Part shown: positions 1-20,621 of the stretch, one piece after another
How positions within the stretch are numbered: the stretch's first letter is position 1
Layout: each line of letters starts with the position of its first letter
Virus record (IMG/VR): IMGVR_UViG_3300024300_000012
Coordinates: 1-26,886 of that record
DNA length: 26,886 nucleotides
Strand: one strand, 5' to 3'
Source of the DNA: a virus
Made by a program: the position numbers and the translations under genes
Notes under the pieces: model-generated
The model's input: only the letters and a program-made list of their open reading frames with translations
Databases searched by the model: none
What the model was told of the DNA's origin: nothing

Positions 1-408
1 TATCAGGGAACTGCGAGTTACACACTTCGCCTAATCGATGACACACCCTCGTCATCTGATACTGTCCGTGTGACGTACACCGTACCCCACAGCGCAACGT
101 CCTCAAGTTGCACAGTCCCGGACAATGATCGCTATGCGGTAGCTGCCCTGGCTGCCAGCAAATTAGCGAAGCAACTGGCCGCTGAAAAAGCCAGAACACA
201 ATCCTCTACGTTGGAAGCAGACGTTGTCAACTATCTCACACAAGTTGACCACTTCCAGCGCATTGCCAAAGAAGCTGAAATGGACTACAGGAAGCACATG
301 GGTATTCCTGATGGTTCTGATGTTGATGCGGCACATGATTATGGGGATATTGATACGCAGTTCTTCTGGGGCGAAGAATTCTTAACACACAAGGATCGTT
401 TCCAGTAA
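1..408 (+). CDS. Partial phage neck / head-tail adaptor-like protein (5' end outside window)
   Basis: The frame is open from base 1, so the GTG at 70 is an internal codon rather than a convincing start, and 135 residues of the C-terminal part are visible. The N-terminal part seen is beta-rich (TASYTLRLIDD, VRVTYTVPH). It is followed by an Ala-rich helix (YAVAALAASKLAKQLAAE), then ADVVNYLTQVDHF and a further helix. A C-terminal pattern of an Ala-rich helix, an A-D-V/S-x-x-Y motif and a long helix of small residues is common in head-tail connector proteins of siphoviruses, and the position just before the tail genes fits. The identification rests on this pattern and on position only. It could be another neck or head-completion protein. 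The stop is TAA at 406-408, and the next gene begins 48 bases later behind an AAGGAG site. Confidence 0.5.
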   Translation, partial: YQGTASYTLRLIDDTPSSSDTVRVTYTVPHSATSSSCTVPDNDRYAVAALAASKLAKQLAAEKARTQSSTLEADVVNYLTQVDHFQRIAKEAEMDYRKHMGIPDGSDVDAAHDYGDIDTQFFWGEEFLTHKDRFQ

Positions 409-456: not shown

Positions 457-3234
457 ATGGCTAGGATTATGGTTCACAGCAATGCGCCATGGTGCGCGAG
501 CGGCTATGGCAAGCTAACCCGATACCTTGTTAACGGGTTAATGAAGCGTGGTCACAAGATGGCAATATCAGCCTTCTTCGGCCTTCAAGGTGGGATTATC
601 AATGCCGAGGGGGTTGATATATATCCGTGCGGCATTGAGGGATGGGGAAACGACGTAATTGAAGCGCATGCCAAGAAGTTTGGCGCCGACATGGTAATCA
701 CCATCATTGACAACTGGGTCCTCAAGGACTTTGGCAAGAAACTGCCCGACAAGTGGTTTCCGTGGTTTCCCGTCGACAGCCATCCTGCTTCACCGCAGAT
801 ACTTGCCAATCTTGGCGGGTCTGTCAAGAGTATCGTAATGTCGAAATTCGGTCTTGAAACGATAAGCAAAGAAGCCAAGTTTCCGAATCTTATCTACATC
901 CCGAACTCTATTGATACGAAGATTATGAGGCCCCTCGCCCCCACCATCATAGAGTCAAAACGCAGGGCAAAAAGAGTCCTTGGTATACCGGATGATATGT
1001 TCCTTGTCTCCATGGTAGCGGCCAACCAGAGCAACCCCTCACGCAAGTGCTTTGAGGAAAACATCGAGGGGTATTTGAAGTTCCATGCCAAACACCCGAA
1101 TTCAATGTTGTATATTCATACCGACCCATTGCCCGTCAGACAAGGCATTGACCTTTATCGGGTAATCAATATTCTCGGTGGCGATAACTCAATTCGTTTC
1201 CCTGACAGATACGATTACCATCTTGGAATTGACGAAGAGCAGATGAATGTCCTTTACAATGCCAGCGACGTTCTCCTCTCATGCTCTGGGGGGGAGGGTT
1301 TTGGGATGCCTATCTGTGAAGCCCAAGCTGCCGGTACTCCTGTCATTGTTACGAATGCCACAGGGATGCCTGACCTTGTTGGGGCGGGATGGGTGGTGCC
1401 TATCCATCACAAGAGGTTCTACAATCTCGGTAATTGGCATTTTCTTCCTGAGATAGAAAAGATAACCGAGGCGTTAGAGAATGCTCTTAGTATCAACAAG
1501 GAATTTTTTGGTGACAATGCCCGCAAGCACGTTATGCAGTTCGATTGGGATTACTGTATTGATAACTACTGGATGCCTCTTATAGAGGAGCACGAGAAAG
1601 GCTCTGTTGATAGGCTACTTAAGAGTTTCCCTGTTAATGCGGATGGGAACAACTATGCTGGCGAAGAAAGCAATATGATTGTTGTGCCGACATGGTCATG
1701 CAATCTAGGTAATAAAGCAGAGACAAAGTGCGTCTATTGCGACTATGTGCCGTCAGAGGGTGGTCATTGTGTCAATATGTTCCAAGGCATTAACAACGTT
1801 AAGATAGATAAGCACCTTGAGCCGAAAGAATGGTTGGACTTCATTAACAAGCGAATGAAGAAACCGGGGCTTGTTGAATTCACAGGCGGTGAGCCGTTGA
1901 TGTACCCTGGGTTCAAAGAACTTGTTAACAATCTGCCTGACGGAATTACATGGGCTATTACCTCAAATACGATACTTTCAACAGAGGGGATTGACCCCAG
2001 CAAGTGCAGAGCATGGACAGCTTCTTTCCATCCGACAGCACCAGCTCCGTATTCAAATCTAGGTTGGTTCATCGAGAGAATGGCAGCACTTCGTAAGCAG
2101 GGGTTTAAGAATATAGCGGTAACTGTTGTTGCCCATCCCAGTTACTTGGATGGTCTCCGTGACGTTGTTAAGGCGCTACGGATGGCGAGACTCGAAGTCA
2201 ATGTCGCTCCGTTCTACTCGAGAGCCTTTGATTGGCGCAAGGACCCATCGAATCTTCGCAGGTTGCTTGACTTCTCCAACTTCTTCCATGGTTTTAATCG
2301 GCTGTGGTGGGACGATACTCCGTCGAATGCGATGTGCTCTGCCGGTGTAACAAGCGGTATAGTCATGCCTGATGGCAGGATATATCGTTGCTACTCGTCC
2401 ATGCTGTGGGACAAGCAGTTATTGGGGAATGCTACTGACGAGAAATCGCCTTACCTAGAGAACGAATCAATGTGCGGGTTGCCTTGCATGTTCCCCTGTG
2501 ACTACGGCAGGAGACGGATAGTTTCTTTGCCGACAGTATCGGTAGCCACTCTTGTTGGACCGGATGCCACCAAAGAACACCTCTCAAGGTTCTCAAAGAT
2601 GATTCGTGAGATAGGTTATCCGAAAGAGAAGATGAAGGTCGTTGTCATGTCGCATCCGTCAAAGACCGAGAGTGTTTCAGAACTGGACTTCGGTGGCAGG
2701 GAAGTTATTACGATTATTGAACCAGTAATCAAAGGTACCAAGTTCCAGCGTATAGCCGGATGGCGAAACGCCTTGAAAGAAAAGGCTCTCGAGTCCAATC
2801 CTGATTACATACTGATGATTGATAGCGATATAGTCAGCATGTCGCCAAGTTCGCTTTCAAGAATGACATCGCTAGGCGCTGATGTAGTAGCCCCTCTTGT
2901 TGTCCTCGAAAACTCACCATGGGGACAATACTACGACACCCTAGCTTTCCGCAGAGATGGACAGCGATTCGGGCTGGCCCCGCCGTATTCAAAGGGTGTT
3001 GAACTTGGCTCCGGCAAACTACTTGAACTGGAGTCCTGTGGCACCGTTTATCTAATCTCGAACAGGGCAGCCAAGATATCCAATTATGCCGGAGATATAG
3101 ACTCCGAACACGTTGCTTTCTGTCATAATGTGAGGACTAACGGAATGAAAGTCATGCTTGACCAGAAATCTACTGCCTTTCATGTAATGCTCGAGAATCC
3201 GCACATGGAAGATGAGTGGAGGAAAGTAGCGTAA
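457..3234 (+). CDS. Three-domain fusion: GT4 glycosyltransferase - radical SAM/SPASM-like - GT2/Anp1-like glycosyltransferase
   Basis: This 925-residue protein has three recognisable enzyme parts. Residues 1 to about 390 are a GT-B glycosyltransferase of family 4 type, with an N-terminal G-Y-G-K loop near residue 17 and the EX7E motif EGFGMPICE at 280-288. Residues about 405-690 are a radical SAM domain: cysteines 415, 425 and 428 (CX9CX2C in place of CX3CX2C), GGEP at 477-480, ITSNT, and a C-terminal set of cysteines at 627, 645, 673, 677 and 681 that resembles a SPASM/twitch auxiliary Fe-S site. Residues about 695-925 resemble a GT-A glycosyltransferase (GT2 or Anp1-like), with a DSD metal motif at 789-791 and a late acidic/His region (DSEHVAFCHNV, then AFHV). 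The start ATG follows AAGGAGC by ten bases. The gene stops in TAATG, overlapping the next gene by one base. It sits between neck and tail genes, where structural genes would be expected, so it looks like an inserted accessory gene. The substrate is unknown; sugar transfer and radical modification of one product is inference. Confidence 0.85.
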   Translation: MARIMVHSNAPWCASGYGKLTRYLVNGLMKRGHKMAISAFFGLQGGIINAEGVDIYPCGIEGWGNDVIEAHAKKFGADMVITIIDNWVLKDFGKKLPDKWFPWFPVDSHPASPQILANLGGSVKSIVMSKFGLETISKEAKFPNLIYIPNSIDTKIMRPLAPTIIESKRRAKRVLGIPDDMFLVSMVAANQSNPSRKCFEENIEGYLKFHAKHPNSMLYIHTDPLPVRQGIDLYRVINILGGDNSIRFPDRYDYHLGIDEEQMNVLYNASDVLLSCSGGEGFGMPICEAQAAGTPVIVTNATGMPDLVGAGWVVPIHHKRFYNLGNWHFLPEIEKITEALENALSINKEFFGDNARKHVMQFDWDYCIDNYWMPLIEEHEKGSVDRLLKSFPVNADGNNYAGEESNMIVVPTWSCNLGNKAETKCVYCDYVPSEGGHCVNMFQGINNVKIDKHLEPKEWLDFINKRMKKPGLVEFTGGEPLMYPGFKELVNNLPDGITWAITSNTILSTEGIDPSKCRAWTASFHPTAPAPYSNLGWFIERMAALRKQGFKNIAVTVVAHPSYLDGLRDVVKALRMARLEVNVAPFYSRAFDWRKDPSNLRRLLDFSNFFHGFNRLWWDDTPSNAMCSAGVTSGIVMPDGRIYRCYSSMLWDKQLLGNATDEKSPYLENESMCGLPCMFPCDYGRRRIVSLPTVSVATLVGPDATKEHLSRFSKMIREIGYPKEKMKVVVMSHPSKTESVSELDFGGREVITIIEPVIKGTKFQRIAGWRNALKEKALESNPDYILMIDSDIVSMSPSSLSRMTSLGADVVAPLVVLENSPWGQYYDTLAFRRDGQRFGLAPPYSKGVELGSGKLLELESCGTVYLISNRAAKISNYAGDIDSEHVAFCHNVRTNGMKVMLDQKSTAFHVMLENPHMEDEWRKVA

Positions 3235-4061
3235 TGGCTCACTTAATCGCTTTCTTGACATGGAGATGCGGGTTAGGTTGCCCCTACTGCGGGTATTACC
3301 TGCAGCCGGATGGCATGTCGCTGAAGTATTGCCCGTTCCAAGATAAGCATACATACGTTGTCGAACGCGAGATTACCGGGGACGAGTGGATAAAACAACT
3401 TAAGCATTTTGCTAAACTTCAATACACTATTGAATTTTGCGGTGGCGAGGTCACAAAACACCACGACTTCGTTAAGATAGCCAATAGCTTGCCACAATGG
3501 GCAATCACATCTAATACCATGAATCTTCCAGAGGGATTGGATTACTCAAAGTGCTTCAGTTGGACCGCGAGTCTTCATTACCATATTGGAGATAAAGGCA
3601 TTCAGAAGTTCATGAACAATGTTGACATTATCGCCAGCAAGGTTAGTTCCTACAGCATGACGATGGTTGCTATGCCAAATACAATAGCTAGAGTAAAAGC
3701 GCTATCCGAGATGTTAACTAGCAAGGGTATTAAAAATCAGCAACATGTTTTCTATGATGATCCATCGTTCTCATGGTATCATCATCCAAAGGAACTTAAG
3801 GAATTAGAGACACTTCCTAATGTTTGTTATGAGAAGAGATTGTTTAGTTGGGGTCAAGTCAAAGGCTCGAGTATGTGCCGTGGCGGTAGTGGTTACATAA
3901 CAATCGGTCCGGATGGGAAGATGTTCAGGTGTCTTACTGCAATGCTGGAGGGGTGGGGGGAGATACCCGCGCCTGATATAAACTTCTACGATTGCAAGAG
4001 ACCATGTCATCTACCTTGTGATTGGTCATGGCGTGATTGGTTATGGGGAAGTGGTGCGTAA
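3234..4061 (+). CDS. Free-standing radical SAM protein, paralogue of the middle domain of the preceding fusion
   Basis: This 275-residue protein starts with the canonical cluster motif CGLGCPYC (cysteines 12, 16, 19), has GGE at 70-72, the strand WAITSNT, and the conserved segment SKCFSWTASLHYH. Its C-terminal cysteines follow the pattern C..GPDGKMFRC and CKRPCHLPC, which parallels CGLPCMFPC in the fusion, so the two share a radical SAM core and an auxiliary Fe-S site. I chose the ATG at 3234 because it overlaps the upstream TAA by one base and has GGAGG 11 bases upstream; an ATG 18 bases earlier lies inside the upstream gene and has no better site. It should use a 4Fe-4S cluster and S-adenosylmethionine to generate a 5'-deoxyadenosyl radical. 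The substrate is not visible. Coupling to the glycosyltransferase fusion suggests sugar or peptide chemistry. Confidence 0.85.
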   Translation: MAHLIAFLTWRCGLGCPYCGYYLQPDGMSLKYCPFQDKHTYVVEREITGDEWIKQLKHFAKLQYTIEFCGGEVTKHHDFVKIANSLPQWAITSNTMNLPEGLDYSKCFSWTASLHYHIGDKGIQKFMNNVDIIASKVSSYSMTMVAMPNTIARVKALSEMLTSKGIKNQQHVFYDDPSFSWYHHPKELKELETLPNVCYEKRLFSWGQVKGSSMCRGGSGYITIGPDGKMFRCLTAMLEGWGEIPAPDINFYDCKRPCHLPCDWSWRDWLWGSGA

Positions 4062-7860: not shown

Positions 7861-10800
7861 ATGCCAAATCTAGGTGAATGGTCTGCTAATGTACGGATGC
7901 ATGCCGAGGGCTTTGAGAAGCTCAACGAGATACAGTCCAGAGTTGAGTTAACCAAAGCTAAACTTGAGGGCTTGGCCCGTGCCAGGATTGCGCCGTTAGG
8001 TATTGAACTCGGTAACATCCTGAATACGATACGGGCAACTACTCCGGCGGCCAGAGGATTACAGGAAGAAATCCAGCGTGTCATGAAGAGCGGCAATGTT
8101 TCTCCACGGCAACTGGAAAAGATAGTCGCTAAATCCGGTGAGCAGGCAGTTAAAGCAACTGGGCAAATTAAAAATGTACTCGCTCAGGGCGGAAAAGACG
8201 TCCATAGTATCTACGAAAAGATGAAAACTGACCAGCAGAACTGGGCGTCTTCAGTTCGGGCAAGTGTGCTTGGTGTCGCTGATGATTTCCGCCTTGCTTT
8301 CCCGTCTACCAAAGTCCAGATGGAAAAGAAAGTCGCAAAAGAACTGGAGATTGTCAATAAGCTTGAGGACTTGAGGAACGTTAGAAGCGAGAAAGCTAAC
8401 GTACAACGCTTCAAGCTGAAGAACCAACTCAAGGTTGTCAAGAACGAAATACAGAGTATGGGTGGCAGGGACCTTGTTCAACTCCGCGAGAAGATACTAA
8501 CAACGCTAATGGCTCTTTCGGAAAGTGCCCAAATTACTCCGGAAGCTATACTCAAGGTTGCCAGGGAAATGCAGTTCTTTGGCGAGGTTGCTGATGACGC
8601 AACCGGCAAGGCTACCAAGTTTCAGAGGAGCCTTAACGACATCGCTACTATCTATGGCGAGAAACTCACGAACGAGCAGATTATAGCAACGAACGCCTTG
8701 TCTGCTTACGCTGACGAACTTAACAAAGTACTGGGCACTCAAGGTAAAGTATCTCCCGAACTGGAGCAGTTGTTCAATGTAATAATGTCCCGCAAGCCGA
8801 TGTCTATCGGGCAGGCAAAGGACTTGTTTGGCAGGCTGATGGCAATCGAGGACCTGAATATACCTGATGCCCAAATACGTGACCTTATTTCCAATATGAA
8901 AAAGGCGCTGGAAAAGGAAATTATCCCGACCCTGGTAGAAGCCGAACGTCGCTATAAGGCAACAGGCACTGGCGGATGGACACAGCTTGATCCCAATGTT
9001 AGGGCAAGGCTCGATATGTTAAGCTACGCTGCCCATGGCGCAATGCTTGCCTTTGGTGCAATGCAGGGTTCTATCATTCAAACAGGCTTCTCCTTGATAT
9101 TCCTGAAGTTCTCCCTGCCACAGGTGGTTTTGCCTGTTGCTGCTCTAACTTCCGAACTTCTGCTTTTAGCTAAAGCGTTCAGCTTTGTAAAAGATGTAAT
9201 GATCGGTGCTGCTGAATACAGCCGTCCGATGATAAGTGCTTGGAACGCCTTAACGAAGACGACTAAGAAGCTAAAGAAAGATATTGGTACGGCAATGTTT
9301 GAGCCTTTATACCAATATCTTGGGATACCAGTATTACAGACTGTAAATCAGGTCGTTAAAGAACTTGCCAGCAACTTCATCAGCATATTCAAGGGAGGCG
9401 CAAAGCTTGATGAATTCCGCTGGAACATGAAAGTTATCGGCGAGGGCGTACAAGAGATTCTAGGGTTTGTTAAAGCGCTTGGCAAAGAGTTCAGCGTCGT
9501 GCTGGCCGAGGGCCTCAATATACTGGTCAAGGTTATCAAGCCGATAGCCCAGATTACCGGAACTATTCTAGGCTGGATAGGTAGGACGATCGAGGCGTAC
9601 CCGGTGATAGGAAAAGCCTTAAGTATCGTTGGGATTATGGCTGTAATAGCCTCTCAAGTAACATTAGGGTACTTCCTGCTGAAGGTCTTTATTCCAAGCT
9701 TATGGAACGTTACAAAAGCCATTAATATAGCATCTGCCCGAATGGTGGCATCGGCTGGTGCTACTGGTGTGGTTGCCACTGGTGGTGCTGCTGCCGCTGG
9801 TGGTGCTGCTGCAGGGGCAGGAGGTGCTGCTGCTGCAACAGGCAAAAGGGCAACTGGTGGAGCGGGCCGAGGGGTAGGTAAAACTGTGGCTAAAAGTAGC
9901 GTCTATTTTCTTTTAGCATCACTAGTTGGTGGTTTGTTTGCTGGCGGAAGTGATGTCAACGAACAGTTGATGTACGAAAGAGCCGTGGAGAGAGGCGATA
10001 AGGCAGAAGCATTGCGAATTCGCAATCGCGCCGAAGCACTTGGTCATCCAATAACGCCGATTTTCGGATTTGCTACTGGTGGCATTGTAACAAAGCCGAC
10101 TATTGGGTTAGTTGGTGAAGCTGGTCCCGAGGCCATCATCCCGCTTACCGACGCTAAAGCTGGTGGCGCAACCGGGATGGAGAACTTCACCCAGCGCATC
10201 AAAGTGTTTGTTAATCCTGTAGTCGAGAAACTATCAGAGGGGTTCAAAACTATCACACTGAGATTGCGCGACTTATGGCGTGGGTGGCAAATGATTTCTG
10301 GCCCGTTAGCTGTTGTTACTGGTTGGTTCAGTCGCCTTTGGGGATGGGTTGCCAGGATATTCGGGATGTGGAAAATAAATATCAAAGTCCCTGAATGGCT
10401 GACTACCGATTGGTGGATAAGCAAGTTCGGGGAGTGGAACGTTTCTCTGCCGGACATCTTCAATGCCGAATGGTGGGCAACGAAATGGGAAGATATCAAA
10501 CAACTTGATTGGATACCAGACTTCCTGAAGCCTAATACTTGGGGCGGGTATATCTCGGATTTAGCTAAAACTGTACAGAATTGGTGGGAAAGTGTTAAGC
10601 CTGACTTCTTCCGTCCTGAATGGTGGTCGCTGGTTGCAGGAGAGATCAATGTAGCGTGGCTGACATTAAAAGGCTACTTCATTAGTTTCTCTGTCAGCTT
10701 CATGGAAGTATTTGGCCCATTTATACAAACGATTGTAGATAGCTGGAACAAAATTCCGTGGGTAGGCGAGAAGCTTCATTGGGACTTTAAGGTTGAGGAT

Positions 10801-11211
10801 TATAAGGCGGAATTAAAGCAACTCAGCGAGGCTAATACAAAAGCCATTGCCGAGCAGATTGCTGCTAATAACGCACTTGCTAGGTCAATTAACAACCTCA
10901 AGCAAGCTGGTATGAATACAATGGGTGGCACGTATACGAACCCGCCTTATCCGATTGATTATACCTCTCCATATCCTCAATTCCCAGGACAGCCATTTGC
11001 CAATGGCGGAATAGTTACCCGCCCCACCCGCGCCATCATAGGAGAACGGGGACCAGAGGCAGTTATCCCGCTTTCAAGGATGCCGCAAATCGTGGTTAAT
11101 GTCACAGGGAACTACATACTGGACAAGCATGGTGCCGATGCATTAGCTGATGTCGTATCTGAGAGTATTATGCGAAAGTTACGGAACTACATTCCGGTGT
11201 CGGTGAGATAA
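7861..11211 (+). CDS. Tape measure protein
   Basis: At 1116 residues this is the longest gene of the window. It has a long helical N-terminal half (residues 1-385), hydrophobic stretches at about 386-446 and 580-613, and an Ala/Gly-rich run (about 630-665). The motif GGIVT(K/R)PT...GE.GPEA.IPL occurs twice, at about 740 and 1049; this signature is common in phage tape measures. Between the copies is a Trp-rich part with several EWW or WW pairs, as in NAEWWATKW and FFRPEWWSL. The protein sets tail length and is ejected ahead of DNA; the hydrophobic stretches suit membrane insertion. AGAGGAGAGG precedes the ATG. No lytic-transglycosylase or peptidase motif is evident. Confidence 0.88.
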   Translation: MPNLGEWSANVRMHAEGFEKLNEIQSRVELTKAKLEGLARARIAPLGIELGNILNTIRATTPAARGLQEEIQRVMKSGNVSPRQLEKIVAKSGEQAVKATGQIKNVLAQGGKDVHSIYEKMKTDQQNWASSVRASVLGVADDFRLAFPSTKVQMEKKVAKELEIVNKLEDLRNVRSEKANVQRFKLKNQLKVVKNEIQSMGGRDLVQLREKILTTLMALSESAQITPEAILKVAREMQFFGEVADDATGKATKFQRSLNDIATIYGEKLTNEQIIATNALSAYADELNKVLGTQGKVSPELEQLFNVIMSRKPMSIGQAKDLFGRLMAIEDLNIPDAQIRDLISNMKKALEKEIIPTLVEAERRYKATGTGGWTQLDPNVRARLDMLSYAAHGAMLAFGAMQGSIIQTGFSLIFLKFSLPQVVLPVAALTSELLLLAKAFSFVKDVMIGAAEYSRPMISAWNALTKTTKKLKKDIGTAMFEPLYQYLGIPVLQTVNQVVKELASNFISIFKGGAKLDEFRWNMKVIGEGVQEILGFVKALGKEFSVVLAEGLNILVKVIKPIAQITGTILGWIGRTIEAYPVIGKALSIVGIMAVIASQVTLGYFLLKVFIPSLWNVTKAINIASARMVASAGATGVVATGGAAAAGGAAAGAGGAAAATGKRATGGAGRGVGKTVAKSSVYFLLASLVGGLFAGGSDVNEQLMYERAVERGDKAEALRIRNRAEALGHPITPIFGFATGGIVTKPTIGLVGEAGPEAIIPLTDAKAGGATGMENFTQRIKVFVNPVVEKLSEGFKTITLRLRDLWRGWQMISGPLAVVTGWFSRLWGWVARIFGMWKINIKVPEWLTTDWWISKFGEWNVSLPDIFNAEWWATKWEDIKQLDWIPDFLKPNTWGGYISDLAKTVQNWWESVKPDFFRPEWWSLVAGEINVAWLTLKGYFISFSVSFMEVFGPFIQTIVDSWNKIPWVGEKLHWDFKVEDYKAELKQLSEANTKAIAEQIAANNALARSINNLKQAGMNTMGGTYTNPPYPIDYTSPYPQFPGQPFANGGIVTRPTRAIIGERGPEAVIPLSRMPQIVVNVTGNYILDKHGADALADVVSESIMRKLRNYIPVSVR

Positions 11212-13681: not shown

Positions 13682-14848
13682 ATGGAAATGAATGTAAGAG
13701 GCCAAGTAACAGTTAATGGGGTTACTTTCAAAAACCTCACGACTACTTACGCAAGAGAACAACTAGCTACATGGTGGACAGGCGGTACAGTTACCCCGCC
13801 ATCTTATATAGCCATTGGTTATGGGACGGTTGCCGCCTCAGTAGGGGATACGGCGCTGTATAACGAGATATACAGGAAGTCTGCCGTTAGTCGTTTAGCC
13901 AGAGCAACGTATTACGCTAGAATAGCTACAACCTTTACTACCCACGAGCCACCGGTCCCGCCAGGTTCGGCTAGTGTTAACATTAAAGAGATGGGTCTTT
14001 TCGATGGTGGGACTGTCACTATAAACAATAACTGGTTCGAGACATGGACGCCCGGGACGCCAGCTTCACCTAACTCATGGTTGTGGTCCGGTGGCACTCC
14101 CGGTTCTATATCCGGAACAGCAAGCGTTTATGAGGGTTCTGCTGCATGTCGCTTTTCCGGTACTGCTGCCAATGCCCAGTTGTATCAGAACGCTTCATTT
14201 GACTCGTCATGGGTAAGCCAACAGTTCACATTCCGTGTGGCGGTTAAAGCTGGTAGCGCATCGCTGGCAAGGGCTTTCATCTATGATGGGTACACAACGA
14301 CTTACTCCGGCTATAATTCTGGTACTGCGAGTTACGAGGTACTTTCAGCGCAAAAGACACTGTCGGGCACAGCTAACGCGCTGAGGGTTGGTGTGGAACT
14401 AGCTGCTGCAGGAACAGCAGATGTCGACTGGGCAAATGCAGTAAAGAATGGAAACTGTTGGGCAAGAGCAGCAGTGAATGTTACTAAAGAGACTAATGAT
14501 CCTGTAACGGCAATATGGGAGGTATATTCCGAAGAACAGGACGAGGAGGGTTCAATGCCTTATGTGCCTTACAACAATGAAGAGATTTCAGCAGGGACGT
14601 CTTCGTATGGGTCGCTAGACCCTACGAAGTACCAGCCGACAGGAGAGGCACCAGCTCAGAAAGCAGTGCTGACAATAGAGAGTAATCAGTTGCGGTACTG
14701 GGTTCATAGCGGAACGCCTACGGCTTCTTCCGGACACGTTCTTGACCCCGGCGATGTGTTAACGCTCGAGGGCGCAACGACTATAAGCCGGATGAAGTAT
14801 ATTGGCGTTGGCGGAACTGCTACTGTCAAAGTGACTTATGAGAGGTAA
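13682..14848 (+). CDS. Tail fibre-like protein with an inserted carbohydrate-binding-type domain
   Basis: This 388-residue protein has a module split in two: residues 1-110 (AIGYGT, LYNEIYRKS, SVNIKEMGLFDG) and 254-283 (NCWARAAVNVTKETND, then VTAIWEVY). In many phage fibres these halves run directly into each other. Between them, at about 112-253, sits a jelly-roll-like insertion beginning NWFETWTPG and containing SVYEGSAACRFSG and YQNASFDSSW, a carbohydrate-binding module pattern (CBM4/9-like). Residues about 320-388 form a small beta domain (KAVLTIESNQLRYWVHSG) ending in VKVTYER. The protein probably sits on the tail tip and touches the host surface. The arrangement is inferred from sequence pattern only. 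The stop is followed by a GAGG site for the next gene. Confidence 0.65.
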   Translation: MEMNVRGQVTVNGVTFKNLTTTYAREQLATWWTGGTVTPPSYIAIGYGTVAASVGDTALYNEIYRKSAVSRLARATYYARIATTFTTHEPPVPPGSASVNIKEMGLFDGGTVTINNNWFETWTPGTPASPNSWLWSGGTPGSISGTASVYEGSAACRFSGTAANAQLYQNASFDSSWVSQQFTFRVAVKAGSASLARAFIYDGYTTTYSGYNSGTASYEVLSAQKTLSGTANALRVGVELAAAGTADVDWANAVKNGNCWARAAVNVTKETNDPVTAIWEVYSEEQDEEGSMPYVPYNNEEISAGTSSYGSLDPTKYQPTGEAPAQKAVLTIESNQLRYWVHSGTPTASSGHVLDPGDVLTLEGATTISRMKYIGVGGTATVKVTYER

Positions 14849-14853
14849 CTAAA

Positions 14854-15555
14854 ATGACAGCGAATATGAGTCGTCCGTTTACCAATCAGGACCTTTGTAG
14901 TGCTGACTTTCTGAACCTATTGCGTGATGATGTTCTGGATGAAGCAACAGGGCACAAGCATACAGGTGCGACTGACGATGGATATCTTCTGACTTATTAT
15001 GGTACGCTGGCTAACCGTCCGGCAGCATCAGCGTCAAACAAGGGGTTCTTGTATTTCGCCAGCGATGAATCGGTCCTGTATCGTAGCAACGGCTCAAGCT
15101 GGGACACGATTTCTGTAGCGCGGACGGACAACCTGATTAAGATGGTTTGGAAAGCTGCTAACCAGACAATCAACAATAGTACTACTCTTCAAGATGATAC
15201 TCACTTGAAACTCACGGTAGCAGCTAACGATGTCTATCAAATTAGGATGACACTTAAAATTACATTCAATGGTACCTCAGACTTGAAATGGAAATTTACC
15301 ATACCCTCTGGTGCATCAATGACGTGGTGGTACCAATCGGTTGACGGAACACCATTGAATGGAACTGATGCCACCGGCGAATCAGTATGGCAGGGTGGTG
15401 ATAGTAAATATCACGCAGTTGATATGCTTTACGTTGGTGGTACCGTTGCTGGAACGGTTCAGTTTCAGTGGGCGCAGTATTCGCCTGTAGTTGTAGACGA
15501 TACAATACATATTGGCTCTAACCTAATAGCACATAGGATTTCACCGGTAATGTAA
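14854..15555 (+). CDS. Tail fibre / distal tail protein
   Basis: This 233-residue protein has a helical N-terminus (FTNQDLCSADFLNLLRDDVL), a linker with HKHTGATDDG, then a short module common to fibre bases: TLANRPAASASNKGFLYFAS and VLYRSNGSSWDTIS. The second half is beta-rich (RMTLKITFNGTSDLKWKFTI, GTVAGTVQFQWAQYSP) and ends in HRISPVM, as in trimeric fibre heads. It is the last virion gene before the membrane protein. Its TAA overlaps the next ATG. Confidence 0.6.
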   Translation: MTANMSRPFTNQDLCSADFLNLLRDDVLDEATGHKHTGATDDGYLLTYYGTLANRPAASASNKGFLYFASDESVLYRSNGSSWDTISVARTDNLIKMVWKAANQTINNSTTLQDDTHLKLTVAANDVYQIRMTLKITFNGTSDLKWKFTIPSGASMTWWYQSVDGTPLNGTDATGESVWQGGDSKYHAVDMLYVGGTVAGTVQFQWAQYSPVVVDDTIHIGSNLIAHRISPVM

Positions 15556-15758
15556 TGAGATGTCTGTATCTCGTATCAGGCGCACTTACCGGGTCGCTAT
15601 TGACAGTTACGACAGCGGATATAGTCTACCTGTGGTGGATAGGCAGGTGGTATGAAATCCAGCCGATACTTGACCTCGAGTTAATATCGCTGGTCCTGCT
15701 GTTCGCGTTCGGGTTGTCATTCTGTATATGGAGTCTTCGCCTGTTGAAACGCCGTTAG
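15555..15758 (+). CDS. Small two-helix membrane protein, holin candidate
   Basis: The ATG overlaps the previous TAA (TAATG). The 67-residue product has two hydrophobic segments, roughly residues 3-25 (LYLVSGALTGSLLTV and on) and 40-61 (LELISLVLLFAFGLSFCIWS), and ends in LLKRR, a positive-inside end. Location at the end of the tail module and the two-segment layout fit a holin, but no endolysin is next to it in this window, so this is only a candidate. It could be another small membrane protein. Confidence 0.5.
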   Translation: MRCLYLVSGALTGSLLTVTTADIVYLWWIGRWYEIQPILDLELISLVLLFAFGLSFCIWSLRLLKRR

Positions 15759-15764
15759 GGTACT

Positions 15765-15843
15765 GTCCATTTCATTCAAGAAGCCACTTTTTAGCCTGCT
15801 GGACAAGCTGGCAGTATGAAACTATAGGCTAGGCAAAATGGAC
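15765..15843. repeat. Nested inverted repeat between convergent genes
   Basis: Between the ends of the two converging arms, GTCCATTT at 15765-15772 is complementary to AAATGGAC at 15836-15843, and TAGCCT at 15792-15797 is complementary to AGGCTA at 15826-15831. The arms are offset unequally, so this is not a simple terminator hairpin, but it could terminate transcription from both sides. There is a short T run (CTTTTTAG) at about 15787-15794. No genes lie here. Confidence 0.4.
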
Positions 15844-15844
15844 G

Positions 15845-16333
15845 TTAATTCTGATGGCGTTCAAGATAGAACTGGTGCGTGGAACGGAATTCCCCGGACT
15901 CAATGGAGTCTTTAACCCGCGCCTTAAACAGGTCTGTCGCTTTCCAAAACGATAAGCCGTTCATGAGTTTCGGCTCAAAAAGGCAGTTAGTATAAACCCA
16001 TAATCGTGGGGCTATGTACCACGAATACTTATCAGCCTTGGCCATTTTCGAGCTTGGAAGCCGTGAATACTCGCAGTGTCCGGCTGTTAACAAAAAGTAT
16101 TCAAACCCGAACCACCGACCGGCAATCGTAGCACCTGTCCGCCAATGCGCCTTTTTCTGCTCGACATCATTCAAGTAGTCAAGGCCCCAATGCCCTATAT
16201 CGTGCAACAGGATGCAGACGGTTTCTTTGAAAGTTGGGAACTTCCCGTACAGCTTTCGCCATGATAGCCAAACTAGAAAACAATGGACAAACGAATGGCA
16301 ACCGAACAGTATAGAGATAGTGCCTTGTTTCAT
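15845..16333 (-). CDS. HD-domain metal-dependent phosphohydrolase-like protein
   Basis: This 162-residue protein has the HD signature: H13 and H17 near the N-terminus, HD at 44-45 in LLHDIGHW, H86, and an ADKYSW late motif. These are the expected metal ligands of the HD superfamily, which includes nucleotidases and phosphodiesterases. It starts one base after the stop of the SPL-type gene (TAAAATG), so the two are co-translated and may work on one pathway. The substrate is not visible. The N-terminus lacks a signal peptide. Confidence 0.7.
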   Translation of the reverse strand: MKQGTISILFGCHSFVHCFLVWLSWRKLYGKFPTFKETVCILLHDIGHWGLDYLNDVEQKKAHWRTGATIAGRWFGFEYFLLTAGHCEYSRLPSSKMAKADKYSWYIAPRLWVYTNCLFEPKLMNGLSFWKATDLFKARVKDSIESGEFRSTHQFYLERHQN

Positions 16334-16334
16334 T

Positions 16335-17087
16335 TTAAGCTTCTGCTTTACATTCTATTCCCTTGAGGCTTCCAAGGTGAACAGCGAGGTCCTTCTTGAT
16401 GTAGTATGACTTCTTCAGTTTCCTCAGGAGCGCCACAACATCCCTAGCGAACTTTGTCCAGTTAACTTGCTCGGCAAGCGGGTGATAGTTCAACTTGCCA
16501 ATTTTATAAGTGTCAACATACTTTGCTGACTTCTCGATAAGAGACAAGGTTTGCTCCGGATAAACCACGGGTTCGCAACTTACCCATGTTCTAATCTTAT
16601 AGTCATGCGCCACTTCCAAGTTCTTGAGTCTGACTTCCGGCAAGGCAGCACTCGGCTCCCACAGGAGAGAGTCGCTACAGTTATTAAAAGTAAGCGTGGT
16701 GCCGAATTCATCAAAGCCCTTGTAAAGATTAAAGTCGTCACGGACGACAGCCCCAGCCTTTGTTAGTATCTTGTAGTTTATGCTGTATCTGTTAAATATA
16801 CGCATAGCTAATTGGGTATCGCTCTCAACCCCAGGCATATATGGGTCGCAGGAGAACGACATCAGCACGGGGCCCCAGTTGGCATGGTCATACATGAACG
16901 CGACATCCATTTCGAGTTTCTTGAAAGCATCGGGCTTCATCTTCGGGACGCTGTACTGCTCTCGAGTAAGATGTAATGTCTCCGGTCCGTAGCAGTAGAT
17001 GCAACCGTGTGTGCATCCATCATACAGATTTAGTGCCATGTTGCAATACTCTTTGGCACGACCACTAGTGTAGTAGATAATCCTCAT
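16335..17087 (-). CDS. SPL (spore photoproduct lyase)-family radical SAM protein
   Basis: This 250-residue protein has the cluster motif CTHGCIYC (cysteines 25, 29, 32) in the setting ALNLYDGCTHGCIYCYGP, the fingerprint of the spore photoproduct lyase-like group. It also has SFSCDPYMPG, ILTKAGAV and WVSCEPV, which are core strands of the radical SAM barrel. Bacterial and phage members of this group are often unassigned; spore photoproduct lyase itself repairs thymine dimers. AAGGAG lies just upstream of the ATG. It is paired with the HD protein and preceded by a structured RNA candidate in its leader region. It is not a close relative of the two SPASM-like radical SAM proteins in the tail arm. 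Confidence 0.82.
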   Translation of the reverse strand: MRIIYYTSGRAKEYCNMALNLYDGCTHGCIYCYGPETLHLTREQYSVPKMKPDAFKKLEMDVAFMYDHANWGPVLMSFSCDPYMPGVESDTQLAMRIFNRYSINYKILTKAGAVVRDDFNLYKGFDEFGTTLTFNNCSDSLLWEPSAALPEVRLKNLEVAHDYKIRTWVSCEPVVYPEQTLSLIEKSAKYVDTYKIGKLNYHPLAEQVNWTKFARDVVALLRKLKKSYYIKKDLAVHLGSLKGIECKAEA

Positions 17088-17112
17088 GTTTCTCCTTTCA
17101 AAAGTAAAAAGC

Positions 17113-17279
17113 GGTGCGGTATCCGGGAGTATAATGCGACTCTACTAAAGTGCATTAAAGCGCCTCTGGTTGCCCAGTCCCCGGCTTCACGGCGGTATTC
17201 ATGGCTCCCCTTGGTGGATTTCCTTATCGGGGAGTTATAGCAACCTACGTTTTGCCACCATCCAACAGGCTACCGCACC
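17113..17279 (-). ncRNA. Structured RNA candidate, multi-helix with pseudoknot (leader of SPL-type gene or independent RNA)
   Basis: Read on the minus strand, GGTGCGGTA at 17279-17271 pairs with TACCGCACC at 17121-17113 (9 bp, P1). GGTTGC 17245-17240 pairs with GCAACC 17173-17168 (P2). CTCCCC 17234-17229 pairs with GGGGAG 17210-17205 (P3, 18-base loop). A further hairpin at 17154-17135 has eight pairs and one bulge, including one G-U pair that is an A-C mismatch on the opposite strand, so the minus strand is favoured. The P3 loop also contains CCACCA (17217-17212), which matches TGGTGG (17260-17255) in the P1-P2 junction, a possible pseudoknot. I do not match this to a known riboswitch class. 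It could be a leader element or a separate RNA. The whole 257-base gap 17088-17344 has no gene. Confidence 0.4.
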
Positions 17280-17344
17280 ATTACACAGGCGGGATAGGAT
17301 ATACCCATTAAACGAGTTTCCGACTCAATACCTGTATAAGCAAA

Positions 17345-17530
17345 TTATACTACAATATCCATGTCCGGATGTGCTTCCTTTTCTGCTAGTAGATTTAGCG
17401 AGATAGCTATAGTAGCCACGGCACACCTGCCGTCAACCCACCATTGACACGCTTCGCCAACGCAGTCAATCTCGTCCGGCAATACTATAGTAGGATGGAT
17501 ACGAAATATTGGGCAGATGCCTTTACTCAT
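17345..17530 (-). CDS. Small four-cysteine protein, probable metal-binding
   Basis: From the ATG at 17530 this is 61 residues, with AGGAA six bases upstream; a longer start would overlap the previous gene without a site. Cysteines are in CP (residue 5), CVGEAC and GRC, with a Trp pair (CQWWVDGRC). Small phage proteins with this CP...C...CxWW...C layout usually bind zinc or iron-sulfur, but the role is unknown. The C-terminal part is an amphipathic helix (VATIAISLNLLAEKEA). Confidence 0.6.
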   Translation of the reverse strand: MSKGICPIFRIHPTIVLPDEIDCVGEACQWWVDGRCAVATIAISLNLLAEKEAHPDMDIVV

Positions 17531-17531
17531 A

Positions 17532-17771
17532 TTAGTTCCTGAATATAGTTTCTGGTCTATAAGTGGTGTCGTCAGACATAAGCACAAAGTCGACCTTTTC
17601 CCATGAACTAGCCGCATTGTCCGGCATACCGAGTATACGGATCATCCTTGCTACCAAAGCATTCCACCCTTTGTTAAGCGACTGCCTTAGCGCAATCGCC
17701 CTAACAAGCACGATATACTCTTCATGGGGAATCTGGTCAAACTCCTTTTGTGTTAATAGCACTTTCTTCAT
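17532..17771 (-). CDS. Hypothetical protein coupled to the DNA methyltransferase
   Basis: I chose ATG 17771 because it forms an ATGA overlap with the methyltransferase stop and has GAGGAG at eight bases. The product is 79 residues, mostly helical (EEYIVLVRAIALRQSLNKGW, NALVARMIRILGM), with no cysteines and no recognised motif. The overlap with the methyltransferase gene suggests joint expression. The function is unknown. Confidence 0.6.
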   Translation of the reverse strand: MKKVLLTQKEFDQIPHEEYIVLVRAIALRQSLNKGWNALVARMIRILGMPDNAASSWEKVDFVLMSDDTTYRPETIFRN

Positions 17772-18310
17772 AGGCTCGCTCCTCGCTCTATCGGCTCGTC
17801 GCTTCGCCACACAATCCTATCCCAAGTAATTTCGGTGCTGTCGGCAAAGCCACGGCGCCATATACAATACGCACTAATGCCATACCAATTAAAGACTTTT
17901 GTTAGAAACATGGTTGACAATCCAAACCCGCGCTGTTGACAATACTCAAGGCGTGCCGGAGTTATAGCATGCATCAGCAGTAATAACCCAAAGCCTTTAC
18001 GACATGATGCCGTTGCCGTTGATAGCGTCTTGTCAATCATTGAATACGGCGGATTTGTAACTATCCAATCAACATTGGCGGGAAACCAAAAAGCGTCCTT
18101 GCCGTCTTCCATCTCTGCCCATCTCTTATCAACAAAGTCGGGCAGATTGTCATAGAAAGCCCCGCTTCCTCGAAACGGCTCCATCACAACATCATTCTCT
18201 ATAAGCGGGGTAGAGCTAATTAGTTTTCCAGCCAAAACCCTGGGAGTATAGAACTTGTCATTCGGCTTTTCACGGTGCTTGATTCCGTGCGACGTACTAG
18301 ATAATGACAT
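17768..18310 (-). CDS. DNA methyltransferase (amino-methyltransferase type)
   Basis: This 180-residue protein has the two key methyltransferase motifs: motif I for S-adenosylmethionine binding as EPFRGSGAFYDNLP and motif IV as TNPPYS (NPPY), with FYTPRVLAGKL in front. NPPY marks enzymes that methylate an exocyclic amino group (N6-adenine or N4-cytosine). It is short, lacking a clear target-recognition domain, as is common in phage orphan methyltransferases, which protect DNA or mark it. The stop overlaps the next gene. The start ATG is preceded by a weak purine-rich site and a compact RNA pseudoknot. Confidence 0.8.
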   Translation of the reverse strand: MSLSSTSHGIKHREKPNDKFYTPRVLAGKLISSTPLIENDVVMEPFRGSGAFYDNLPDFVDKRWAEMEDGKDAFWFPANVDWIVTNPPYSMIDKTLSTATASCRKGFGLLLLMHAITPARLEYCQQRGFGLSTMFLTKVFNWYGISAYCIWRRGFADSTEITWDRIVWRSDEPIERGASL

Positions 18311-18326
18311 AACTCTTTTCTTATTA

Positions 18327-18368
18327 GGGGCCTACACTCCGGGTCGGCCCCCAGTCTTCGGTACCCGG
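18327..18368 (-). other. H-type pseudoknot candidate in the methyltransferase leader
   Basis: On the minus strand CCGGGT (18368-18363) pairs with ACCCGG (18344-18339), and GGGGCC (18351-18346) pairs with GGCCCC (18332-18327). The second stem's 5' arm lies in the loop of the first, with connectors of 11, 1 and 6 bases. This is an H-type pseudoknot of two six-bp GC-rich stems ending 17 bases before the ATG of the methyltransferase, so it could influence translation. The pairing also works on the opposite strand. Confidence 0.4.
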
Positions 18369-18438
18369 CTACCTCGCCACTGGTGCACGCCATAAGTAAG
18401 AGCCTAGGAATTACTCACGGTAACTGACCTGTGGCTAG

Positions 18439-18479
18439 AAAATAAAAGCCCAGTTAACTGGTGGTTGCCAGAACTGGGC
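18439..18479 (-). terminator. Intrinsic terminator downstream of the tRNA
   Basis: On the minus strand GCCCAGTT (18479-18472) pairs with AACTGGGC (18455-18448), with an inner CTGG/CCAG stem (18471-18468 with 18461-18458), followed directly by TTTTATTTT (18447-18439). This is a normal intrinsic terminator two bases after the 3' end of the tRNA. Confidence 0.85.
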
Positions 18480-18480
18480 A

Positions 18481-18556
18481 TGGTAGCGGGGGACGGAGTC
18501 GAACCGCCTATTTCAACCGCATGGGGGTTGTGAGATGCCGTTTCTCCACACCCGCG
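18481..18556 (-). tRNA. Atypical tRNA, anticodon CAT (Met/fMet-like or Ile-lysidine)
   Basis: On the minus strand this is a 76-base cloverleaf ending in encoded CCA. The T arm is GGCGG-TTCGACT-CCGTC, the anticodon arm is CAACC-CCCATGC-GGTTG with CAT at the anticodon, and the D arm is GAGA-AACGGCA-TCTC. The acceptor 3' strand is CCCCGCT before the A-CCA end, and the 5' strand starts CGCGGGT. The 1-72 pair is a C-T mismatch, reminiscent of the mismatched end of initiator tRNA. Three bases (rather than two) lie between acceptor and D stem, and position 33 is C, not T. It lacks the three G-C pairs of initiator anticodon stems. It may be a variant or decayed tRNA. A terminator follows. Confidence 0.6.
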
Positions 18557-18569
18557 ACGCAACATAATC

Positions 18570-19112
18570 TTAAGTTGTCTTAAGGTGAAAGTCAATATCA
18601 ATGTCTCCCCTAAATCGCCACCGTTCTATGTGCTTGTCTTTGTCGGAAGTGATTAACTGTCCGCCAGCCTTACAGATTACGTCCAGAAAGACCTCGAGTT
18701 CGCCAGGTTCACTTACATCAACATTAACCTCGGCTACATTATATACCCACCCATGAGTAACTATCCTGCCAACAGGCAGGGCAACAATCTCGACAATGTC
18801 CAGTTCCTGCAAAATGAAAGTAATCTCCTCGAACCGAATTTCTCTACGACCAAGCCTGTCATGGATGCCAATGCTTCCGCAAAATTGTCTATGTTCTATC
18901 ACCTTGTCGGTAGGCAGAACACTAATGACAAATGACTTATTGCCGACGTGCTTATGTATGATGAGGAATATCTCATCAAAGCTGAGATAGCCAGCCGGAG
19001 TATCAACGAAGTTTTGAGTCAATGGATATTCCAGCCCGGCGCCGTTCTCGATATCGTCAAGCGTTCTTTCCTCGAACTTGCACAGGAAGTTAGTGTATTC
19101 AGTTTCGTTCAT
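18570..19112 (-). CDS. Hypothetical protein upstream of the tRNA
   Basis: The product is 180 residues with alternating helix and strand segments such as FLIIHKHVGNKSFVISVL, FEEITFILQELDIVEIVALP and ELEVFLDVICKAGGQLI. It has no metal-cluster motif, no signal peptide and no recognised domain. It overlaps the 3' end of the preceding small zinc-type gene by 14 bases, and its stop lies 13 bases before the tRNA. The good coding character and packing argue that it is real. The function is unknown. Confidence 0.6.
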   Translation of the reverse strand: MNETEYTNFLCKFEERTLDDIENGAGLEYPLTQNFVDTPAGYLSFDEIFLIIHKHVGNKSFVISVLPTDKVIEHRQFCGSIGIHDRLGRREIRFEEITFILQELDIVEIVALPVGRIVTHGWVYNVAEVNVDVSEPGELEVFLDVICKAGGQLITSDKDKHIERWRFRGDIDIDFHLKTT

Positions 19113-19254
19113 CTATTCTCTTCGCCTTAAATAACTTTGCGCACTTACTGCATAGCGGACCGTTGTGTTTGGATATCTTGAGTTCTTTATCAAGCCCTAA
19201 CCATTCATATGTAACAAGCTGAGTCACCCTGTGACCGCAGATGCCATATTTCAC
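19099..19254 (-). CDS. Small zinc-ribbon-like protein (51 residues)
   Basis: GTG at 19254 starts right after the TAA of the metallophosphoesterase gene, with AAAGG about six bases upstream, and runs 51 residues to TGA 19101-19099. It has CGH near the N-terminus (YGICGHRV) and CSKC near the C-terminus (NGPLCSKCAKLFKAKRI), giving a Cys-His-Cys-Cys set that could hold one zinc. The gap would otherwise be 142 bases in a compact operon. It is below the usual size cut-off for gene finders. Confidence 0.6.
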   Translation of the reverse strand: MKYGICGHRVTQLVTYEWLGLDKELKISKHNGPLCSKCAKLFKAKRIDERN

Positions 19255-20169
19255 TTAGGACCTTTTCTTGCCCCAGACATTGCCCTTGGAGCAGACCTCG
19301 ACATCACGGCGTCCGTGATGTAACCCATGAAGGATTATCTTTGACGTGCCAAGGTCTGTCGGTTGATGACCGCCACGCTGGGCATAACCGCCCCATTTGA
19401 CCCAGGCACCGCAACCAACAAAGTTCTTGCGGTGGTTTCTAGCAAGACCGACTTTCCACGGCTTGCCATCTACAGCGTATGTCCTGTTATCAGGTACTAG
19501 ATAGTTCTGCGGGTGAGTGTGGGTTGTGTGGTCATGAGCAATCAGATAGACATCAGCATGGACGGCATCGCCGAGGTCTTCCACCTTGACTACTTTCGAG
19601 CCTATACGCCTAGCACCACCCCACCCATGAGTGCCATAGACCCAGAAAGAGTAGCCCCTATCGGGGAGAGAGTAATTGCTACTTCCAAAAGTAACCTTGA
19701 GATAGATACCATCGGGGAAATACGGCACGCCCAGTTCGGTAGCCATTTCCTCAGAGACGTCCGTGCTGGTGTTGCGGTATATGCGTGCCTCATGGTTGCC
19801 ACTGGTCATTCCTAGAATCTTATGCTTGATTGGTTTCAAAATCTCGATGACCGCACGCTTCTGCTTCGATGGGGTAATAATCTGGTCCCAAGCTGACCCT
19901 TTCGAGTCAAGGAGATTTGCTTCAATGAGATCGCCAATGCAGATAGCGTAGGCGTTGGGGGTGGTGGCGATGTAGTCCCTTAACTCAAGGAAATGGGGTA
20001 GGGAACAAAAGGGGTTGCCGAGATGAAGATCGCAAATACCGAACAACTCAAGGTTTTCGAATTCCTTGCCGAGGGACCAAGCTACATACTTCAGTTCTTT
20101 AAGATCGGCTTTGAGTAGTAATGACTCCCAATCTTTTTCTTGGTTTGTTAACTTCGGTTTAGTACTAAT
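19255..20169 (-). CDS. Calcineurin-like metallophosphoesterase, probably with an ATT start
   Basis: All metal-binding blocks of the calcineurin-like phosphoesterases are present in order: DLH in GICDLHLGN, GD in IGDLIEA, GNHE in SGNHEAR, H in THGWGG, and the last block as AHDHTTH. Substrates of phage members are usually nucleic acids or nucleotides. A TTG at 20046 would start just before the DLH block, but the frame is open 41 codons further up with convincing protein (QEKDWESLLLKADL, LKYVAWSLGKEF). In that extension ATT at 20169 has GGAAAGAGG six bases upstream, right behind a promoter-like sequence, and no ATG, GTG or other TTG is available. So I extend to the ATT, giving 304 residues. The end abuts the zinc-ribbon gene. 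The start is inferred. Confidence 0.75.
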   Translation of the reverse strand: MSTKPKLTNQEKDWESLLLKADLKELKYVAWSLGKEFENLELFGICDLHLGNPFCSLPHFLELRDYIATTPNAYAICIGDLIEANLLDSKGSAWDQIITPSKQKRAVIEILKPIKHKILGMTSGNHEARIYRNTSTDVSEEMATELGVPYFPDGIYLKVTFGSSNYSLPDRGYSFWVYGTHGWGGARRIGSKVVKVEDLGDAVHADVYLIAHDHTTHTHPQNYLVPDNRTYAVDGKPWKVGLARNHRKNFVGCGAWVKWGGYAQRGGHQPTDLGTSKIILHGLHHGRRDVEVCSKGNVWGKKRS

Positions 20170-20186
20170 GTCTAACCTCTTTCCCT

Positions 20187-20215
20187 ATATTAGCATAGTG
20201 GATTTTATACGTCAA
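20187..20215 (-). promoter_or_regulatory. Sigma70-type promoter candidate ahead of the metallophosphoesterase
   Basis: On the minus strand TTGACG (20215-20210), a 17-base spacer and TAATAT (20192-20187) match the bacterial -35/-10 pattern at five and four positions of six. Transcription would begin at about 20181, giving a leader of only about 12 bases before the ATT start and fitting the GGAAAGAGG ribosome site poorly or just well enough. The -35 overlaps the 3' end of the upstream gene. Confidence 0.4.
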
Positions 20216-20621
20216 TTCTTACCCCTCTGGTTCGGGACCACGTTAGATGCGACCGGTGTGAACGGCTACAACAGTATTCATTCCTGTCTATCTTGGCACG
20301 ATATTTAATCTGAGACATACGGATTTGTATCGTCTTCCCGCACCATGCGCATTTGACTGCCTTGTAGTGTGAGGCAGACTGACATGCCATATTGCAGAAT
20401 ATCCTGTGTCCTGCTATCGGCTTACCGCAACTTGGGTTGGCGCACAGGTGCATATTCTTTGTCTTTCTTGCGCCAAGCATTGCCTTGTACATCTCGGGTG
20501 CTTTCCTAACAAAGATTTGACGGATGTTCTCGTATGAACAGTCAAACTTCTTGCTGATATGGCGAAGCGTAACGTCCGGATGTTTCTTCTTATAATCAAT
20601 TACTGCTTTATGATTAACCAC
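20205..20621 (-). CDS. HTH protein with two zinc-finger-like cysteine clusters
   Basis: From GTG 20621 (GGAG five or six bases upstream) the product is 138 residues. Residues about 15-42 (VTLRHISKKFDCSYENIRQI) form a sigma-70 region 4-like helix-turn-helix. It is followed by two cysteine clusters: CANPSCGKPI...FCNMAC and VKCAWCGKTI...CCSRSH, each with four possible zinc ligands. The pattern points to DNA binding, perhaps a transcription factor or homing-type DNA-interacting protein, but no nuclease motif is seen. It overlaps the preceding gene by eight bases. The C-terminus is basic (TWSRTRGVRI). Confidence 0.65.
   Translation of the reverse strand: MVNHKAVIDYKKKHPDVTLRHISKKFDCSYENIRQIFVRKAPEMYKAMLGARKTKNMHLCANPSCGKPIAGHRIFCNMACQSASHYKAVKCAWCGKTIQIRMSQIKYRAKIDRNEYCCSRSHRSHLTWSRTRGVRIDV

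Follow-up and report, generated by a model that had tools for sequence, protein, structure and literature searches.

The 26,886-nt stretch of the viral record IMGVR_UViG_3300024300_000012 (the window), from an uncultured phage, contains a gene, at 457–3234 on the plus strand, in which three enzymes are joined on one polypeptide: a GT4-family glycosyltransferase (GT), a radical S-adenosylmethionine (rSAM) enzyme with an auxiliary iron–sulfur (Fe-S) site, and a second GT of the GT-A fold. The fusion is new, while the partnership of rSAM with glycosyltransferase is not unique to this virus and recurs in dozens of uncultured phages. We propose that this fused enzyme both assembles and modifies a glycan, most likely one for the virion, a reading to which we give roughly even chances. 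Coordinates refer to the window unless they carry the label G001, the 79,568-bp contig described below, or an L-number, which labels a locus in a viral contig.

A three-enzyme fusion within the structural gene block

The frame opens with ATG at 457 and runs unbroken to a stop at 3234, encoding 925 amino acids. An initial annotation, made from the sequence, had placed the gene at exactly these positions and had read it as three enzymes; both points hold, as the domains are recovered by Pfam (in the order GT4, weak Radical_SAM, Anp1), PHROGs, family alignment and fold models. The EX7E motif of a GT-B enzyme that it pointed out is E280-X7-E288 in the GT4 domain, and the Fe-S cysteines and GGEP are present, the three core cysteines and GGE being invariant in 20 sequences, although the unusual spacing of the cysteines (see below) had gone unmentioned. 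The gene, its parts and the gene coupled to it are as follows.

457–3234 (+): GT4–radical SAM/twitch–GT-A fusion, 925 amino acids (open frame; Pfam, PHROGs, own models)
457–1641 (+): GT4 (GT-B) glycosyltransferase domain, residues 1–395 (Pfam PF00534, 8.8e-12; Mae-JY09 homologue)
1294–1320 (+): EX7E motif, E280–E288 (both glutamates invariant among five phage homologues)
1669–2517 (+): radical SAM domain, residues 405–687, including a twitch/SPASM-like auxiliary Fe-S site (own model; predicted structure)
1699–1740 (+): core [4Fe-4S] cysteines C415-X9-C425-X2-C428 (all three invariant in 20 relatives)
1885–1896 (+): GGEP SAM-binding motif, residues 477–480 (GGE invariant across 20 sequences)
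2335–2499 (+): auxiliary cluster motif C627-X12-G-X4-C645 ... C673-X3-C677-X3-C681 (C627, C645, C673 and C677 invariant in 20 relatives)
2521–3228 (+): GT-A glycosyltransferase domain, Anp1/GT62-like, residues 689–924 (Pfam Anp1; Foldseek and VIA-align folds)
2821–2829 (+): DXD motif D789-S790-D791 (sequence motif)
3234–4061 (+): a second rSAM of the same family, unfused, 275 amino acids (TAATG overlap with the fusion stop; GGAGG upstream resembling a ribosome-binding site)

Our own hidden Markov models scored 600 bits for GT4 (residues 1–395), 280 bits for rSAM (405–687) and 219 bits for GT-A (689–924); since the fusion's own domains are within those alignments, the scores serve to place the domain boundaries and do not test the assignments independently.

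Assembly error, named in the initial annotation as a possible refutation, was ruled out. A second contig of the virus, IMGVR_UViG_3300045117_000026 (L001; 79,568 bp), is 99.98% identical across 14,034 bp and bears the identical three-domain fusion, and the two contigs jointly close a circular map, with window positions 13707–15275 and 15273–26886 bridging both ends of G001. The genome map is thus circular or circularly permuted.

The gene order is terminase, portal, protease–capsid fusion, unnamed genes, fusion gene, second rSAM, tail tube and tape measure. Being flanked on the larger contig by head genes and tail genes, the fusion gene lies in the structural block, of which the window holds these further parts.

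1–408 (+): 3′ part of an upstream structural-block gene, unnamed and without PHROG (complete gene, L001 9266–9952)
4986–5957 (+): tail tube protein, downstream (Pfam Phage_tube_2, 9.7e-20)
7861–11211 (+): tape measure protein (PHROG tape measure, 1.7e-12)

The capsid protein of the same block (L001 1232–3949; 905 amino acids; phrog_29592, 1.2e-138) has a prohead protease-like N-terminal part. In Pfam searches across the 79,568-bp contig, the fusion gene was the sole GT4 match and no GT2-family match was found.

The GT4 domain and its phage relatives

Both Pfam families that match the N-terminal domain score above their cut-offs (PF00534, Glycos_transf_1, 45.3 against 26.4 bits; PF13692, Glyco_trans_1_4, 2.1e-11, 44.7 against 27 bits), and the glycosyltransferase family phrog_2170 matches residues 4–345 (1.5e-29). 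The GT4 of Microcystis phage Mae-JY09, which adjoins the capsid gene, is 35% identical to the fusion GT4 across 384 amino acids. In this phage and in phiPsal1, as in many viral contigs, the relative lies directly 3′ of the major capsid gene or one gene further. A scan of viral contigs with GT4 gave 559 loci, of which the best 80 were used. Nine of these 80 encode a GT4 fused to an FkbM methyltransferase (L020, L022, L036, L042, L054, L058, L066, L076 and L093), each in a phage structural block; in L058 an extra methyltransferase domain follows.

The radical SAM domain and a coupled second enzyme

Pfam Radical_SAM matches the fused domain below cut-off (2.8e-4; 21.5 against 29.5 bits), and the homologous rSAMs of L029 and L030 pass it. 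The core cysteines depart from the canonical CX3CX2C in being spaced as CX9CX2C. Relatives are mostly CX3CX2C, except for the clade with GT-A partners, which has CX12-13CX2C; because this intact clade has such a loop, the extended spacing of the fusion is natural variation. Other core spacings exist in the radical SAM superfamily, such as CX14CX2C in QueE. QueE identity was considered on account of the extended loop and dropped, since the fused domain has an auxiliary cluster.

The twitch/SPASM signature CX9-15GX4C with later cysteine ligands is present (C627-X12-G-X4-C645, then C673 and C677). The full seven-cysteine SPASM pattern is absent, CX3CX3C standing in place of CX2CX5CX3C; the site is nearer to twitch. 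TIGR04085 on this domain stays below its cut-off (20.4 against 27 bits), as do STM4011 (25.1 against 200 bits) and the other named NCBIfam rSAM families listed.

Since the full-length fusion alignment was misaligned, the domains were modelled one by one. The predicted rSAM model has a pLDDT of 82 and a pTM of 0.83. Among the matches listed for it, Z scores are 18.1 for SkfB, 17.4 for BlsE, 17.3 for both MoaA and DesII, 16.5 for both SuiB and anSME, and 13.7 for BtrN; PqqE is in the list as well. As sugar-acting and peptide-acting enzymes are both among these matches, the fold leaves the substrate undecided.

The second rSAM gene is start–stop coupled to the fusion gene, with which it overlaps in TAATG; a start at 3216, as listed, is less likely than the ATG at 3234. 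The two rSAMs are 27% identical (E 2.8e-31); the second has the canonical CX3CX2C, and its auxiliary cysteines are identical to those of the fused domain. Both form long, unresolved branches in the family tree. A bacterial origin of the rSAM was considered, and a scan of genome contigs returned an NrdG-like protein alone (L118). When P0001 or an alignment of two rSAM sequences served as query, the virus itself was all that was recovered, and the relatives described below were found with improved alignments.

The GT-A tail

The C-terminal domain had been called GT2-like, and a DSD motif had been noted in it. The motif is there (residues 789–791) and the GT-A fold stands; as to family, Anp1/GT62 is a closer match than GT2. 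Anp1 (PF03452) passes its cut-off both for the whole protein (4.1e-7) and for the isolated tail (34.3 against 28.8 bits, with 63 of 263 profile positions aligned). The predicted model is of low confidence (mean pLDDT 56, with a poor second half). The VIA-align matches listed for this low-confidence model are GT-A glycosyltransferases at Z 10–12, including Mnn9 (3zf8) at Z 10.2, with other matches equal or higher. Its top Foldseek match is COLGALT1, a collagen hydroxylysine galactosyltransferase (E 7e-7), and LH3 follows closely.

Homology of the tail to two sets of phage genes was tried and set aside. The GT-A genes adjoining GT4 in Mae-JY09, phiPsal1 and S-CBS4 have no significant similarity to it, and those of L135–L153 share suggestive motifs only (BLAST E 0.007 among nine sequences; hhalign E 0.016 at a probability of 2.8%).

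Separate-gene relatives of the fused enzymes in other phages

Loci retrieved by rSAM sequence alone fall into three groups, all from uncultured phages. In the first two, which together hold 31 loci and include near-copies, 29 have a GT4 gene no more than 5 kb from the rSAM, and the remaining two contigs stop at the rSAM; most of the 31 are flanked by capsid and connector or tail genes.

In the first group (L098–L115, of the L029/L030 type) GT4 is found within 5 kb in all 18 loci, in the order capsid, GT4, often a B12-binding rSAM, rSAM, often a sugar epimerase/dehydratase, second GT4, tail completion and tail tube. The B12-binding rSAM, of 415–426 amino acids and close to the capsid-side GT4, occurs in many of L029, L030, L032, L033 and L098–L110, and could serve as C-methylase for the same glycan.

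The second group (L117 and L122–L133) is the closer subgroup. Here the rSAM lies beside the capsid gene in 13 of 13 loci and beside GT4 in 11; the two without GT4 are the contigs that end at the rSAM. Sulfotransferase-like genes are located within the capsid–rSAM–GT4 module of L124 (7801–8397) and L128 (5139–5810), which suggests sulfated virion glycans in these phages.

In the third group (L135–L153) the partner is a GT-A gene, directly 3′ of the rSAM in 18 of 19 loci; the remaining locus is truncated. This pair adjoins genes for a polymerase processivity factor and PAPS (3′-phosphoadenosine-5′-phosphosulfate)-reductase-like proteins in another phage lineage, and its role may possibly be in DNA or nucleotide modification.

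No other locus examined has a fused GT4–rSAM or rSAM–GT-A frame. The same domain order, which the initial annotation had suggested looking for in other phages, thus has no second instance as a fusion among these loci, and its parts adjoin as separate genes. Like that annotation, we know of no named family with the order: the rSAM has only weak single-domain matches in NCBIfam and PHROGs, and tblastn against 50,697 GenBank phage records returned relatives of the GT4 part only, with none for the rSAM, for the rSAM–GT-A half or for the GT-A of L147.

A proposed role in glycan synthesis and the alternatives

The fusion joins on a single chain both partner types, GT4 and GT-A, of separate rSAM clades. 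In the Rosetta-stone sense it indicates that all three activities work jointly, and the neighbourhoods in three groups add to this. We propose that the protein is made along with the head and tail proteins of the phage, that the GT4 domain would attach or extend a sugar on one of these, and that the rSAM would then alter that sugar by means of a 5′-deoxyadenosyl radical, in a dehydrogenation or other two-electron oxidation, an epimerisation or another change initiated by C–H activation; the complete auxiliary Fe-S site would suit electron transfer. The GT-A domain may then extend the glycan by another sugar, and the second, coupled rSAM may make a further change. This succession of steps is put forward as the most plausible scheme, the reactions named for the rSAM being candidates. 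From where the gene lies, and from the enzymes of sugar chemistry that occupy equivalent slots (FkbM methyltransferase, epimerase/dehydratase, sulfotransferase and B12-binding rSAM), we infer that the glycan is probably on the virion and that the sugar, not the protein, is probably the radical's substrate. The closest rSAM folds include the sugar-acting BlsE, DesII and BtrN. That a glycan or a glycosylated peptide is modified, as the initial annotation had it, is consistent with these neighbourhoods, and its word 'processive' finds no support. Its observation was confirmed and its interpretation partly supported; the coupled second rSAM and the recurrent separate-gene partnership had been missed.

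Several points weigh against a virion glycan altered by the rSAM. The fold list that contains the sugar enzymes also contains the peptide-modifying SkfB (the top Z score given above), SuiB, PqqE and anSME, and sequence profiles favour enzymes of both kinds equally. The rSAM–GT-A pair of the third group is located among replication genes, so that the partnership is not tied to the virion everywhere. Many loci are near-copies (L101/L103–L105/L109; most of L136–L153), so that the counts overstate independence, yet three separate groups concur. Substrate and glycan are predicted here from the genes, and gene position is no proof of target, since a GT encoded within the structural block of a phage can also have the host surface as its target.

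The main rival is a side-chain modification followed by glycosylation: the rSAM would oxidise or otherwise alter a residue of a structural protein, and both GT domains would glycosylate the altered residue. Such a combination has a precedent in the lysyl hydroxylase LH3, which carries residue modification and glycosylation on one chain, and anSME, SuiB and SkfB act on peptides. The fold and profile matches of the rSAM to peptide-modifying SPASM/twitch enzymes agree with it, as does the ranking of COLGALT1 first and LH3 next for the GT-A model, a model whose confidence is, however, low. No small precursor peptide or leader-binding domain of the kind associated with ribosomally synthesised and post-translationally modified peptides was seen, no dedicated search having been made, and FkbM, epimerase and sulfotransferase genes in equivalent slots indicate sugar chemistry. 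We consider this rival unlikely.

A different target, the host surface polysaccharide, would make the structural-block position incidental, the enzyme serving superinfection exclusion or receptor masking during infection. GTs of other phages have been so interpreted in print (PMC7029224), the virion glycan proposed here is a prediction from genes, and the phage has an HldE-like nucleotidyltransferase, of a kind used for lipopolysaccharide sugars. The late structural-block position argues against it, as does the finding that in many diverse contigs a GT4 or an rSAM gene adjoins the capsid gene; nor was a transmembrane anchor or polymerase gene noticed adjoining the fusion. The chances of this explanation seem to us distinctly low.

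Modification of DNA, also considered in the initial annotation, is disfavoured. In this scenario the GT would glycosylate a modified base of the phage DNA and the rSAM would alter the sugar; rSAM and GT genes do take part in known DNA hypermodification, and the clade of same-family rSAM and GT-A genes lies next to the processivity factor and PAPS-reductase-like genes. We looked for the pyrimidine-precursor families PF00303 (thymidylate synthase/hydroxymethylase type) and PF12851 (Tet/JBP), and neither matched in the 79.6-kb contig, with control genomes that responded clearly for PF00303 and hardly for Tet/JBP. Together with the structural-block location of the fusion, this makes DNA an improbable target.

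Least credible of all is a passenger role for a drifted rSAM, with only the GTs of importance: the CX9CX2C spacing and the sub-threshold Radical_SAM score would fit it, but all ligand cysteines and GGEP are retained, the full auxiliary site is invariant, and intact relatives have a still longer loop.

Returning to the virion glycan, we advance somewhat more tentatively, at a little short of even chances, the broader claim that phages remodel the glycans of their own particles by radical SAM chemistry, that this virus condenses transfer, radical modification and transfer into one polypeptide, and that the rSAM represents a new GT-partnered family. If true, the recurrent rSAM–glycosyltransferase module would imply that phage particles bear chemically unusual sugars of the phages' own making. 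As a Rosetta-stone fusion, the protein also offers a single construct for finding the reaction of an uncharacterised rSAM family.

Other genes of the phage

Elsewhere in the window, a gene for an HldE/cytidylyltransferase-like nucleotidyltransferase (24699–25232, minus strand) overlaps one for a mannose-6-phosphate-isomerase-type cupin (25129–25587, minus strand), and the pair might supply an activated sugar. Two radical SAM genes of other families, PA0069-like and phrog_7293, are located at 16335–17087 (minus strand) and at G001 35021–36004 (minus strand; L009 15021–16004), with no glycosyltransferase recognised adjoining either. On the minus strand of G001, genes at 31452–32483, 30646–31452 and 41239–41814 appear, by eye, to encode two ThiF/E1-like proteins, with E1 placed only weakly by PHROGs, and a JAB-like protease that adjoins the first of them; a ubiquitin-like or cysteine-biosynthesis system is possible in this phage. 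Two small neighbouring proteins, at G001 29875–30261 and 30280–30633 (minus strand), have the N-termini MKIRTGFVSNSSSSSFLI and MKLRTSFVSNSSTTSFLI.

Comparison with known systems

Marine phages have been noted to carry rSAM genes and GT genes, each on their own (PMC7029224, PMC7150976), and we found no report of an rSAM–GT partnership or of a phage rSAM–GT fusion in the open-access literature searched. Phage GTs make virion glycans in mycobacteriophages (e.g. Che8), at the C-termini of capsid and tail-tube proteins, according to PMC12619734 and PMC11256854. The phage virion glycans described there were recently recognised and are explained by glycosyltransferases alone. Common to both cases is that phage GTs are proposed to decorate structural proteins, the GT here being within the structural block; the present module differs in having rSAMs, in the fusion of GTs with rSAM, and in being known from its genes.

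Nearer relatives share single parts of the fusion. Microcystis phage Mae-JY09 and Pontimonas phage phiPsal1 have a GT4 that is 33–35% identical over its whole length, in the same genome region, but it is unfused; the genes that follow it separately encode an epimerase, a methyltransferase or a GT2, and there is no rSAM. The GT4–FkbM fusions have the same GT4 with a SAM-dependent enzyme fused C-terminally, in the same type of module; that enzyme is a methyltransferase instead of a radical SAM protein, and there is no GT-A tail. The stand-alone rSAMs beside GT4 (L029, L030, L117 and L122–L133) resemble the fused domain in sequence (~20–34% identity), auxiliary cysteines and capsid-side position, and differ in being separate genes with the canonical CX3CX2C. 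The L135–L153 pairs share the order rSAM then GT-A and the extended core cysteine loop, whereas they are separate genes in a replication block, with weak homology of their GT-A to the fusion tail.

With SkfB, BlsE, MoaA, DesII, SuiB, anSME and BtrN the fused rSAM has in common the fold and the auxiliary-cluster architecture (Z 13.7–18.1); these enzymes are ~14–18% identical to it and are unfused to GTs. Since their substrates differ mutually, no solved SPASM/twitch enzyme predicts the reaction of the fused domain. The kind of system proposed here, phage glycan decoration, is known, and what the present gene adds to it is a fused radical enzyme.

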